Shown piece after piece: positions 30,601-35,245 of a stretch of 45,408 nucleotides of DNA. The notes beneath the pieces were generated by a model, which saw only the letters and a program-made list of their open reading frames with translations, was not told the DNA's origin and searched no databases. Source of the stretch: an uncultured Chlorobiaceae bacterium. Lineage in GTDB: Bacteria; Bacteroidota; Chlorobiia; Chlorobiales; Chlorobiaceae. Numbering within the stretch: position 1 is the stretch's first letter; each line of letters begins with the position of its first letter. The DNA is taken from contig CAIPYV010000127.1 of NCBI GenBank assembly GCA_903869365.1, positions 1 to 45,408 of the forward strand, read 5' to 3'. Made by a program: the position numbers and the translations under genes.

Positions 30601-32646
30601 ATGGGCGCCTTCAACAACAATGCACGAAACCTCACTCCTGACAATAACGGAAAAAGAGAGTCCGTTTCTCTTGAAATGATTGATTTTAATCCGGAATGGC
30701 AATTCAAGGACAGTAAAACAGGAGTGTTCTACAAAAACGGTATTATCCCCCAGAAACTGTTTATAACCTTTCTCGGAGGGAATATTCAACCTGAAAGCGC
30801 AAAAAGAGCAATCGATATCCTTGAAAAAATGTTTCAAAGCGGTGTGCTCACGAATTGCGAATATATCAGGATTGCTGATTATAATGAGGTTATCAACGCA
30901 CCGTTCAGCACCAGAATCCTTTACGCCAATTCGCTGAACCGCCTTAACAGCACCTACAACTGCCGTCCTTCCATCACCTACATCTGTGGCGCATCCCTCC
31001 TGTTAAAAACAATGCTGCGCCTCTTCGCATCCTATGTAAAGCAACTCTTCATCTTTGTGCCGACCGTACAGGACGCTTTCGTCAAGATAAACACAGGGCC
31101 GAACCTTGACAGAGTTGAGCGTGACCGCAAGATTGTTCTTTCACAACAGGAAATCGATCAATTTGCAACACTATGCGGACACATTCTTTTCAATGAATCC
31201 TTTACGTTTGACGAAAAGCTGAATGGTGTATCACCTGATAATCCTCTGCACGATCTCTATACCATCATCTCACTCCTGAACAACGATCTCAGAGAACTTC
31301 AGAAAACCGAAAAAGAGCAGAAGAAGCAAATAGAAGATGCCCTTGAAGATTTCCGAATGTTGAACAGCCAACTTTCGGTACAGAAAAAAAATGTCGAAGA
31401 AAAAGAACAGATCCAGCAAATTCTTATTAAAAACCTGACACAGGCAAGAAAAGAGGCTGAAACAGCAAACCGGGCAAAAAGCGAATTCTTAGCCAACCTT
31501 TCCCATGAAATCATAACACCCCTGCACGCGGTCATCGGCATGACGGATCTTCTTTGCTCCACTTCACTCAACAGCGAACAGAAAACTTATACCGATACCA
31601 TACAAATGAGTACACAGCAACTTCATCAGTTGCTCAACAACATTCTTGAATTCAGTAAAAACGTATCAGGAAAACTCGATAGTGAACAATCAATCTTTGA
31701 TATCCGAAGACTTTTTGATGATATCTCTTCACTCCTGCTTGATGAAGCCCTGAAAAAAAGGCTGCTGTTAACGTTCGCCATTCCGAACTCAATTCCGACA
31801 CCTCTTTTAGGGTATCCTGCTTTTCTTTTGAAAGTGCTGATCAACCTTGTTGAGAATGCCATCAAATTTTCCGAAAAGGGGGAAATTGTTGTCAGCATCA
31901 GACATCTCTCTGAAACCTCGGATGATATCACGCTCTGCATCTCTGTCAAGGACTCTGGAATAGGCATACCTGAAGGGAAAAAAGAACTTATTTTACAGCA
32001 ATTTACCCAGTTGGACTCTTCAGCTACCCGTAAAGCCGGTGGTACCGGACTCGGCCTGGCTATCGCAAAGCAACTTATTGAGTTTATGGGGGGAACACTC
32101 AATCTCTGCAGCGTTGAACATGAAGGCTCTGAGTTCTGGTTTATCCTTGCATTCATAAAGCCACAAGAAAACAGCAACCTACCGAAAGCATTCACCGCCA
32201 TGCAAGAGAGAGTTTCACCATCGGAAAAAGAACTGTCTGGCTCTCAACAATCAATCGAGAATGCATTACCAATAAATAACCGCATTCTGCTTGTTGAAGA
32301 CAACAGTGTCAATCAGCGAGTAGCTAAGGCCATGCTCAACAAACTTGGGTGCACGGTAGATATTGCCGCCAATGGTTTCGAAGCGCTTGATGCCCTTCAG
32401 CAAAACACCTATGCTCTGGTGATCATGGATTTGCAAATGCCCCTCATGGGAGGACTTGAAGCTACAAAAGAGATCAGAAAACAGGCAACAGGAAGAATAA
32501 ACCCGAACATCCCTATCATTGCCATGACTGCAAATGCAACGAAAGAAGACCATAACAACTGCCTGAAAGCCGGCATGAATGACTTCATCTCAAAACCCGT
32601 CATGATGACGACCCTTCAGACATTGCTGCAAAAATGGGTGCAGTAA
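30601..32646 (+). CDS. Soluble hybrid sensor histidine kinase next to nifA
   Basis: 681-residue kinase without membrane segments. Residues 1-225 form an unrecognised sensor region (DFNPEWQF, IIPQKLFITFLGGN, TYICGASLLLKTMLRLF). A coiled coil spans about 225-295 and leads to the HisKA box NLSHEIITPLHAVIG with H302; the usual R-T-P is changed to I-T-P. The ATPase domain has LVENAIKFS and GGTGLGLAIAKQ. A C-terminal receiver follows (LLVEDNSVNQR, phospho-acceptor D610 in IMDLQMPLMGG). It is 170 bp downstream of nifA in the same direction, so a link to nitrogen or redox control is possible but not shown. A bidirectional terminator lies 60 bp after the stop. Confidence 0.85.
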   Translation: MGAFNNNARNLTPDNNGKRESVSLEMIDFNPEWQFKDSKTGVFYKNGIIPQKLFITFLGGNIQPESAKRAIDILEKMFQSGVLTNCEYIRIADYNEVINAPFSTRILYANSLNRLNSTYNCRPSITYICGASLLLKTMLRLFASYVKQLFIFVPTVQDAFVKINTGPNLDRVERDRKIVLSQQEIDQFATLCGHILFNESFTFDEKLNGVSPDNPLHDLYTIISLLNNDLRELQKTEKEQKKQIEDALEDFRMLNSQLSVQKKNVEEKEQIQQILIKNLTQARKEAETANRAKSEFLANLSHEIITPLHAVIGMTDLLCSTSLNSEQKTYTDTIQMSTQQLHQLLNNILEFSKNVSGKLDSEQSIFDIRRLFDDISSLLLDEALKKRLLLTFAIPNSIPTPLLGYPAFLLKVLINLVENAIKFSEKGEIVVSIRHLSETSDDITLCISVKDSGIGIPEGKKELILQQFTQLDSSATRKAGGTGLGLAIAKQLIEFMGGTLNLCSVEHEGSEFWFILAFIKPQENSNLPKAFTAMQERVSPSEKELSGSQQSIENALPINNRILLVEDNSVNQRVAKAMLNKLGCTVDIAANGFEALDALQQNTYALVIMDLQMPLMGGLEATKEIRKQATGRINPNIPIIAMTANATKEDHNNCLKAGMNDFISKPVMMTTLQTLLQKWVQ

Positions 32647-32704: not shown

Positions 32705-32725
32705 CGGACCACCTGAGGTGGTCGT
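32705..32725. terminator. Bidirectional intrinsic terminator between convergent genes
   Basis: GACCACC-TGA-GGTGGTC gives a perfect 7-bp stem. On the minus strand it is followed by CGATTTTTATTTTTT, a good terminator for the FGE-like gene; on the plus strand a weaker GTTTCTGTTG follows for the hybrid kinase. Confidence 0.8.
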
Positions 32726-32742
32726 TTCTGTTGTCGTTTGTT

Positions 32743-32803
32743 ACCAGAACATTTTGGCGTGCGGCGCTCGTCCCTCACTGCCGCTCACCAAAATGTTGGT
32801 ACT
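32743..32803. repeat. Large imperfect hairpin downstream of the FGE-like gene
   Basis: ACCAGAACATTTTGG pairs with CCAAAATGTTGGT (10 bp perfect at the core, a 2-nt bulge beyond), and GCGGC/GCCGC inside adds a second stem. The structure spans about 60 bp and begins about 45 bp past the FGE-like stop codon. It is separate from the terminator. In known diversity-generating retroelements a hairpin or cruciform just downstream of the variable region is needed for homing; here that role is inferred. Confidence 0.6.
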
Positions 32804-32846
32804 GCTCTCTCGCTCAAAAGCAAAGCCGGAATGAGCTGCCAACTGA

Positions 32847-33512
32847 CTACGGGACGAAAACCAGGCGGAAGCCAACACGGTTGAACCGGTGGCCGGGGGT
32901 GCCGTCGCCCCGATACGCCGACCGACAGCGCCCGGCAGAGCTGCCCCAGCCCCCGCCACGAAGCACACGGGACGAACGAGTTTTTTCATCATACCAACTA
33001 TCAGTCCACTCCAATACATTACCGGCCATATCGTACAACCCTTCAGGTGTGGCTCCGTCGGGATAGCTGCCGACTGGTGTTGTTGTGCCTACATTGCTAT
33101 TATAGTTGAGCAATTTTGAGGTTGGTTCACCCTTCTCTGTTGGCCAAGGGTATTCACGCTTTTCCTTGCCTGCTGCGGCATATTCCCACTCCCATTCTGT
33201 GGGTAACCGGAACTTCTTCCCTGTTTTTGATGACCGCCACTTGCAATAGGCAACAGCATCATCCCAGGAAACACCAACAACAGGATGATTATCATCAGTC
33301 AAGGCATCCCCTAATTTCTTATAATAGTCGTTGCCTCCTGTTTTTACATTATATTCACTTCCTTCTTCCATCCATTCTGGATAATGAGTAGTCGTTTCCT
33401 GTGCAAATTGCAAATATTCCTTGACCGTCACAGCATACTTGCACATATAAAAGTCAGCGACCTTCACCCTATGCTCTTTTTCATCGCCGACAAAAATCGC
33501 ATCGCTTGACAT
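32847..33512 (-). CDS. Formylglycine-generating-enzyme-like (SUMF1/C-type-lectin fold) protein, possible DGR target
   Basis: 221-residue FGE-sulfatase domain protein. Family landmarks are HRVKVADFYMCKYAVT near the start, HPVVGVSWDDAVAYCKW (about 75), FRLPTEWEWEYAA (about 100), GLYDMAGNVLEWT and the C-terminal RVLRGGGW through VGFRLVF. It lacks the catalytic Cys pair context of true FGE and starts within the usual M-G-S-D motif, so about 10-20 N-terminal residues are missing; a TAA lies seven codons upstream. It is exported or cytosolic unknown. The final 35 codons are GC-rich and almost all end in C or G, as in the variable region of diversity-generating retroelements, whose target proteins often use this fold. 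No reverse transcriptase is present in the window. Confidence 0.8.
   Translation of the reverse strand: MSSDAIFVGDEKEHRVKVADFYMCKYAVTVKEYLQFAQETTTHYPEWMEEGSEYNVKTGGNDYYKKLGDALTDDNHPVVGVSWDDAVAYCKWRSSKTGKKFRLPTEWEWEYAAAGKEKREYPWPTEKGEPTSKLLNYNSNVGTTTPVGSYPDGATPEGLYDMAGNVLEWTDSWYDEKTRSSRVLRGGGWGSSAGRCRSAYRGDGTPGHRFNRVGFRLVFVP
32850..32951 (-). other. Candidate diversity-generating retroelement variable region
   Basis: Codons 188-213 of the FGE-like gene include NNC codons (GGC, AGC, CGC, GGC, GAC, ACC, GGC, CAC, TTC, AAC) at the positions that are AAC in typical template repeats, followed by an invariant GFRLVFVP segment that could serve as the IMH-like end. Base composition changes sharply to GC-rich here. 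The template repeat is not in the window, so this is inference. Confidence 0.45.
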
Positions 33513-33886: not shown

Positions 33887-34341
33887 AATGGTCACAACCG
33901 GCAAAAAACGACTTAAGGCAAATTTATGATTTCATTGCAAGGGATTCCAGGTTTTACGCGCAGAAAGTCACTTTTGAAATCGTCAAAAAGTCAGAAAAAC
34001 TAAACTCCTTTCCAGAAGCTGGCAGAATTGTTCCTGAGATGGGAGATAACAATATTAGAGAGTTACTTATTTATTCCTATCGAATAATTTATGAAATCTC
34101 ACCAAACAAAGTTGAAGTTCTTGCATTGATTCATGCTAAGCGTAATTTCTTGAACGATTTAATGAGTGAGCACCTGCATTTGCTTAAAAGCCATTGCGAG
34201 CAATGTCGTCATAGTATTATTCTCCTCTCTATTGTTGTTTGCGGTGCGTCTCTCCTTCTGTTCAATATTGTAATAATAACAAGGTTTATTTCGGCATGCC
34301 AGCAATATATTGATCAATCCGAGCGATCTCTTCCTGGCTGA
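33880..34341 (+). CDS. RelE/ParE-family toxin with an unusual C-terminal extension
   Basis: The first 95 residues are a ParE-type toxin: MVKWSQPAKNDLRQIYDFIARDS, then FPEAGRIVPE, RELLIYSYRIIYEI and ALIHAKRNF, the normal ending. The frame continues for about 57 more codons with a hydrophobic stretch (IILLSIVVCGASLLLFNIVI) and overlaps the 3' end of the convergent aldo/keto reductase gene by 56 bp. A TGA is present in a neighbouring frame exactly where family members stop (about 34163), so a one-base indel probably removed the native stop. Toxicity, partner specificity and membrane association of the extension are unknown. Confidence 0.75.
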   Translation: MVKWSQPAKNDLRQIYDFIARDSRFYAQKVTFEIVKKSEKLNSFPEAGRIVPEMGDNNIRELLIYSYRIIYEISPNKVEVLALIHAKRNFLNDLMSEHLHLLKSHCEQCRHSIILLSIVVCGASLLLFNIVIITRFISACQQYIDQSERSLPG

Positions 34342-35245
34342 GTCTGAATTCACCCGCGCCAATGATACCCTCCACCTGGGCGGCAGTGCGGCCTCCGACT
34401 ATTGCTCCTGTAACTGCCGGATGACGCAGGGTCCAGGCAATGGCTACTTCTCCTGCTGAATGGCCATAGGGTGATCCGATAACTTTAAGCAGCTCAACCA
34501 GCTCAATATTTGCTGAGAGGCGAGGCTCCTGAAACTCCTTGTTCCCCCTGCGCCAGTCATCCTTGGGAAAATTTGCAACACGTTCATGCGTCATTGCACC
34601 GGTCAGCATTCCCGAAAGCATTGGAGAGTAGACAATGACACCGATGTTATGCTCCATGCAGAAGGGTAGAATCTCTTTTTCAATCGCAGGGCGCAACATT
34701 GAATAGGGAGGCTGGAGGGATGCGATAGGTGCTATCGGCATGATACGGCGCAAGTGTTCGACATTGAAATTCGATACTCCGATATGCCGCACAAGACCTT
34801 GCTCCTGCAGGGATGCCATCTCCTGCCAGCCCTCTTCAATATCGACGTCAGGGTTCGGCCAGTGTATCTGGTAGAGATCGATTGCATCAACACCCAGCCT
34901 CTTCAGACTCCCTTCACATTCACGCTTGATAGAGTCAGCCTTGAGAGAGTTGCTGATCTGTCTCCCTTCATCCCAAGCCAGGGCACATTTGGTAAAAATA
35001 AAGGGCTTCTTTTGTAAGCCGGCCACAGCCTTTCCGACAAGTTCCTCTGAATGACCGAGTCCATAAACTGCTGCCGTATCAATCCAGTTTATGCCAAGCT
35101 CAAGAGCCCGATCAATTGCTCCGACAGCATCGCCGTCATCCTGAGCACCCCAGCCATACGCCCAGTTGCTGCCTCCGATGGCCCAACTTCCGAAGCCAAT
35201 GGGAGTAATATGCATATCTGTATTTCCAAGCTGCCGTGTCTGCAT
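34286..35245 (-). CDS. Aldo/keto reductase
   Basis: 319-residue NAD(P)H-dependent oxidoreductase of the AKR superfamily. The catalytic tetrad is complete: D56 and Y61 in DTAAVYGLGHSEE, K86 in FTKCA and H128 in YQIHWPNPD. The cofactor segments GVSNFN and, near the C-terminus, GAIVGGRTAAQ are present. It is most like the AKR11/YajO-type general-stress or sugar-aldehyde reductases. It is a single gene facing the toxin gene and divergent from the nif operon. Palindromic sites of the form CCTACA-N4-TGTAGG lie about 45 bp upstream and may control it. Substrate unknown. Confidence 0.88.
   Translation of the reverse strand: MQTRQLGNTDMHITPIGFGSWAIGGSNWAYGWGAQDDGDAVGAIDRALELGINWIDTAAVYGLGHSEELVGKAVAGLQKKPFIFTKCALAWDEGRQISNSLKADSIKRECEGSLKRLGVDAIDLYQIHWPNPDVDIEEGWQEMASLQEQGLVRHIGVSNFNVEHLRRIMPIAPIASLQPPYSMLRPAIEKEILPFCMEHNIGVIVYSPMLSGMLTGAMTHERVANFPKDDWRRGNKEFQEPRLSANIELVELLKVIGSPYGHSAGEVAIAWTLRHPAVTGAIVGGRTAAQVEGIIGAGEFRLSQEEIARIDQYIAGMPK

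Follow-up and report, generated by a model that had tools for sequence, protein, structure and literature searches.

A diversity-generating retroelement variable region in Chlorobium, probably written in trans by HRDC-class cores and since orphaned

Remote variable regions (VRs) of diversity-generating retroelements (DGRs), VRs that lack a reverse transcriptase (RT) or template repeat (TR), and the use of non-adenine identity to judge activity in trans are known from Treponema denticola (PMC4891356) and Thiohalocapsa (PMC10907252). In T. denticola, VR genes occur in some isolates that have neither RT nor TR, and in one case a remote VR matches the TR of another isolate type (PMC4891356). The paper on the multiple DGRs of Thiohalocapsa PB-PSB1 noted multiple DGRs in Chlorobi as well (PMC10907252), and the consulted part of an earlier survey reports that DGRs of Chlorobium phaeobacteroides and Pelodictyon phaeoclathratiforme can have more than one VR (PMC3521204). 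In BPP-1, an inverted repeat 3′ of the VR is needed for efficient homing (PMC3240598). RT-anchored surveys miss remote and orphaned VRs, a limit stated in PMC8144416.

The locus described here lies in the window, the whole 45,408-nucleotide stretch that was analysed, in a genome (G000) of the genus Chlorobium in GTDB terms, available as a 2.93 Mb draft of 136 contigs that is 99.99% complete. A preliminary description, made from the letters of the window, had proposed a remote DGR VR at the end of an FGE/C-type-lectin gene. This proposal was largely borne out: the template lies elsewhere, and it is the adenines of the template at which the VR has changed. The features of the locus are listed below in window coordinates.

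30601–32646, + strand: histidine kinase/response regulator gene, the synteny anchor flanking the insertion site (syntenic in the relatives compared)
32707–32723, − strand: terminator-like end of the target gene, a perfect 8-bp palindrome followed by a T run (inverted repeat; 100% identical in the relative G087)
32740–32801, − strand: hairpin after the VR, with a GAGGGACG apical loop (loop 32769–32776; fold z and covariation)
32847–32876, − strand: invariant 3′ end of the VR (GTTGGCTTCCGCCTGGTTTTCGTCCCGTAG), IMH-like and common to TRs (TR/VR alignments)
32847–32977, − strand: DGR VR, 131 bp with the stop codon included (comparisons with the TR at G012:C28 and with sibling VRs)
32847–33512, − strand: FGE/C-type-lectin target gene, encoding a variable protein of 221 aa (ORF, Pfam and phmmer)
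34286–35245, − strand: aldo-keto reductase gene, the synteny anchor on the opposite side (Pfam Aldo_ket_red)

The variable region and the hairpin that follows it

The 221-aa target contains one FGE-sulfatase domain (Pfam, E = 2e-49) and matches TvpA, a T. denticola DGR variable protein of solved structure (2y3c; phmmer, E = 6.7e-11). These matches give it, by sequence, the C-type-lectin/FGE fold of a DGR target; an AlphaFold2 model built from 6 sequences reached a pLDDT of 40, too low to bear on the fold. The product ends in GFRLVFVP, the fixed terminus remarked upon in the preliminary description. That account had also singled out a GC-rich end of 35 codons. The composition was confirmed, with 71% G+C in the VR vs 45% in the remaining gene and 44% in the window, and homology to the template proved slightly longer, covering 32847–32977. 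The suspected NNC-codon pattern was likewise recovered: C-ending codons make up 21 of 43 in the VR vs 32 of 179 in the gene body.

Aligned to the TR of a relative's DGR (G012:C28), the VR is near-identical over its 131 bp at the 3′ end of the gene, differing at 24 of 32 adenines and at 3 of 97 other positions (p = 3e-16). The same concentration on TR adenines appears among four VRs of this genome (window, C11b, C33 and C45), which vary among themselves in 26/32 template-adenine columns and 3/97 others (p = 2e-18). Cognate TR/VR pairs of intact relatives, used for calibration, mostly have 0 non-A mismatches. We conclude that positions 32847–32977 on the − strand are the VR of a DGR. The contrary reading, an ordinary family of FGE paralogs with GC-rich ends and a coincidental likeness to DGRs, could appeal to the frequency of FGE domains across the genus. 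Its probability is negligible, since the adenine-specificity test refutes it with p down to 2e-18; the existence of TRs, an unvarying 3′ end and covariation within the hairpin speak against it too. No TR/VR-like repeat pair was found inside the window, and ∼10 further matches to the VR region occur in the genome. All RT matches of the genome lie off the window's contig, as the earlier remark that the window holds no RT would have it.

A hairpin with a 10-bp perfect core had been predicted past the stop codon, and it is real. Its 18-nt arms (32748–32765 and 32780–32797) are 89% complementary, it begins 50 bp after the stop codon, and its DNA fold has z = −5.0, with none of 200 shuffles as good. 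Two-sided compensatory change affects 14 of the 18 predicted pairs in an 11-sequence alignment. Most VRs examined in the genus have a hairpin at roughly +50 to +100; three VRs of this genome (C96, C108 and C114) have no clear one. As in DGR targets, the hairpin lies 3′ of the VR and is absent 3′ of the TR: it was missing after all 8 TRs examined, and also after the VR-like sequence on C45. The motif GGGAC occurs within 150 bp downstream of 50/69 VRs vs 8/69 TRs (p = 2e-13, the pairs from related loci not being independent), counted over 69 TR/VR pairs in 59 loci that were chosen across phyla by related RTs and not by the HRDC gene. Loops of the GAGGGACG type recur in the 3′ flank of VRs, and not in that of TRs, at loci L102–L178 in Chlorobiaceae, Saprospiraceae, Bacteroidales and others. 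The portion of the DGR literature consulted yielded no description of this loop, which is not proof of its absence.

Like the BPP-1 element, the hairpin is an inverted repeat just 3′ of the VR and outside the TR/VR homology. BPP-1-type hairpins have a 7–10 bp stem and a 4-nt GRNA loop, and lie 4–34 bp after the VR (PMC3240598); the window hairpin, in contrast, has a stem of ∼18 bp, a GAGGGACG loop of ∼9 nt and a start ∼50 bp after the VR. Given the shorter stems and loops of BPP-1, we regard it as a longer variant. By analogy with the same system, the invariant segment at 32847–32876 may act as an IMH.

Templates and the syntenic site

The preliminary description had called for a search of the genome for a near-identical template beside a DGR-type RT, and for doubt should the genome hold neither. 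The genome does hold an AAC-rich TR at C11:506–640, with RT genes and fragments elsewhere. The RT adjoining this TR is broken, and the window VR differs from the TR at 24/32 adenines and 9/97 other positions. As cognate pairs mostly have 0 non-A mismatches, these 9 rule out the C11 TR as the last or direct template. The best fit is instead the intact TR at G012:C28, and sequence comparison thus points to a G012-like TR as the last template of the window VR. The assembly contains no such TR: that on C11 is its sole TR of the HRDC-class family, and none matches the window VR at every non-A position. We also considered the C11 TR as a decayed fossil, in view of its Pro in place of Leu in GFRLVFVP, and dropped the idea when the VR at the syntenic site of G087 proved to agree with it at all 97 non-A positions, the Pro codon among them.

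This relative, the closest whose match covers the kinase region (87%), allows the site to be compared directly. Its VR differs from the C11 TR at 0/97 non-A and 16/32 A positions. Over the stretch from the VR end through the terminator, G087 shares 99–100% identity with the window, vs 83.6% over the kinase and 77% over the VR. The two VRs at the same locus fit different TRs, so one lineage or both must have had the VR replaced, and retrohoming was presumably the mechanism. One locus would thereby have been written from two templates, neither found at the locus.

Ordinary gene conversion among paralogous VR genes could also have switched the template, without new retrohoming at the locus; sibling VRs and their 3′ flanks are alike enough to recombine. 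We hold this improbable. The window VR differs from each sibling in its group at many adenines and almost nowhere else, and conversion alone does not create adenine-specific novelty; no donor VR with the exact adenine pattern of the window was present in this assembly. Relative to G087, moreover, the altered sequence ends with the VR, and the flank 3′ of it is 99% identical.

Other relatives bear on the origin of the site. It is empty in G084, G005, G033, G069 and G016: the target gene is missing from all five, and their aldo-keto reductase stands directly after the kinase. The interval holds the FGE gene, VR and hairpin in the window genome and in G087, and in G062 it additionally holds HRDC and an RT truncated at aa 236. 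The earlier view of the locus as remote as such therefore probably did not always hold. The G062 site suggests that the VR probably arose in cis and later lost its core, and the simplest reading of the synteny would be an ancestral cis cassette whose core was lost progressively.

Reverse transcriptases and HRDC-class cores

All three HRDC-class cores found in the assembly (C11, C110 and C45) are broken, and RT searches of its 136 contigs recovered fragments of an HRDC-class RT, on C11 and C110, and no intact one. On C11, a 132-aa ORF upstream of the TR matches both ends of a 334-aa DGR RT; ∼600 bp have been lost in frame, near a short AGTTGC-like sequence common to both sides. The right part of C11 is 98% identical to the intact DGR of G071 and the left 206 bp are closer to other relatives (81–86%), so C11 may be a recombinant or an assembly chimera. 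The RT fragment at C110:1–227 is 98% identical to the RT of G020; at one side the start of the contig cuts it short, and at the other unrelated sequence takes its place. From the TR position onward, C45 shares 89.4% identity with the intact DGR at G012:C28 across 919 bp. At that position, however, the sequence is VR-like and is fused to a metallophosphatase/NACHT-type gene that lies upstream and is truncated. The locus has neither HRDC nor RT; we infer the scar of a VR × TR recombination together with a further deletion. Separately, C11 (L023:2131–5751) encodes a 1206-aa sibling target with metallophosphatase, NACHT and FGE parts and its own VR, an architecture that would fit a conflict-system sensor.

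Such losses extend to the genus. In a survey of 65 genomes, ∼20 have at least one near-full-length HRDC-class RT, and RT remnants occur in several others, also beside intact RTs, which within the limits of draft genomes indicates that core loss is recurrent. At four further loci (G018:C120, G018:C82, G012:C54 and G087:C77; L057, L058, L056 and L192), TR-like repeats, some partly altered, are preceded only by the last 60–80 RT codons. The remnants in G018, G012 and G087 show that DGR cores have decayed repeatedly across the genus.

Two other DGRs of the genome are apparently intact. That on C36 (L025:309–2597) is of the Avd type, with a 344-aa RT, a bAvd gene, a TR and an FGE target VR, and its TR and VR mismatch at template adenines in 20/20 cases. 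That on C134 (L026:6115–8269) has a 405-aa RT, 22 of 29 TR/VR mismatches at adenines and, by our own reading, a target of a different, DUF1566-like type. One might suppose that these Avd-type DGR RTs act on the window VR through the C11 or another HRDC-class TR, given that both loci look intact, with full RTs and, on C36, the bAvd gene. Little probability attaches to this, given that their own TRs are unlike the HRDC-class TR, their RTs are only ∼31–39% identical to the HRDC-class RT, and the C11 TR has the 9 non-A mismatches noted above. Among the remaining RTs, those on C41 and C65 are group II intron-like by our own reading. C37 (L006:1048–2550) encodes an RT of another type, 500 aa long and matching RVT_1 more weakly, which we read as unlike DGR or group II intron RTs; it is possibly a defence-type RT.

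Taken together, the window VR belongs to the target of an HRDC-class DGR; it was maintained in trans and has probably become an orphan. Its ancestor, to judge from G062, would have been an HRDC-RT-TR cassette with an FGE target between the kinase and the aldo-keto reductase. After deletion of the core in the lineage of the window, the leftover VR, together with its invariant 3′ segment and its hairpin, would have stayed a valid acceptor, to be rewritten through mutagenic retrohoming by TRs located elsewhere. In the sister species G087 this TR would have been of the C11 type; in the window genome it would have been a G012-like one that is now missing. This order of losses and the present inactivity are what the comparison suggests. 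The preliminary claim of action in trans would accordingly stand as regards the writing, and probably belongs in the past tense, the cognate TR being missing and no intact HRDC-class RT having been found.

Orphaning is probable as a statement about this draft assembly. Several contigs end within VR/hairpin repeats and both C110 and C11 begin within DGR sequence; a gap could thus hide an intact HRDC-class core, or these two contigs could have been put together wrongly. On the rival reading the VR would be active, with a cognate HRDC-RT and a G012-like TR in an assembly gap still diversifying the gene in trans. The near-perfect non-A identity of the sibling VRs argues for recent activity, the VRs of this genome having only 2–4 non-A mismatches to the G012 TR, and the ‘broken’ DGRs of Thiohalocapsa PB-PSB1 were rescued by population long reads (PMC10907252). 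We nonetheless consider an active locus unlikely, although less so than the other alternatives: a genome of such completeness gave HRDC-class RT fragments only, and C45, the TR-flank ortholog of the best-fitting DGR, is without HRDC and RT.

Comparison with described systems

There are precedents for VRs that are remote or lack an RT or TR, and for multiple VRs in Chlorobi; the template switch at one locus is the most informative feature of the present case. Two templates at one locus in sister species provide comparative evidence for trans retrohoming and template switching, and the acceptor, VR plus hairpin, is separable from the writing machinery. More tentatively, HRDC-class VRs, with their invariant 3′ end and GAGGGACG-loop hairpin, might be portable acceptors, each able to survive the loss of its own core and to be written by one core after another. 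A genus such as Chlorobium would in that case share a pool of targets and competing, short-lived templates and RTs. The class-wide hairpin loop offers a handle for finding remote or orphaned VRs. It also follows, as a caution, that VRs without a working core can appear recently diversified.

A close likeness is to the HRDC-class DGR of T. denticola (TvpA; PMC4891356), which shares the FGE/C-type-lectin target, the 3′ VR, the HRDC accessory gene and several remote targets. Unlike that system, the syntenic locus of the window matches two TRs in two species, and the wrecked cores are still visible. The DGRs of C. phaeobacteroides and P. phaeoclathratiforme come from the same bacterial family and likewise have multiple VRs per DGR; in its consulted part, the survey that reports them (PMC3521204) lists DGRs with RT-associated VRs and, unlike the case here, describes no orphaned VRs. 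Thiohalocapsa PB-PSB1 (PMC10907252) belongs to a different phylum, its DGRs were disrupted by MITE-like repeats, and their diversification was measured in populations, whereas the Chlorobium cores were lost via deletions and rearrangements and are known from the assembly alone.
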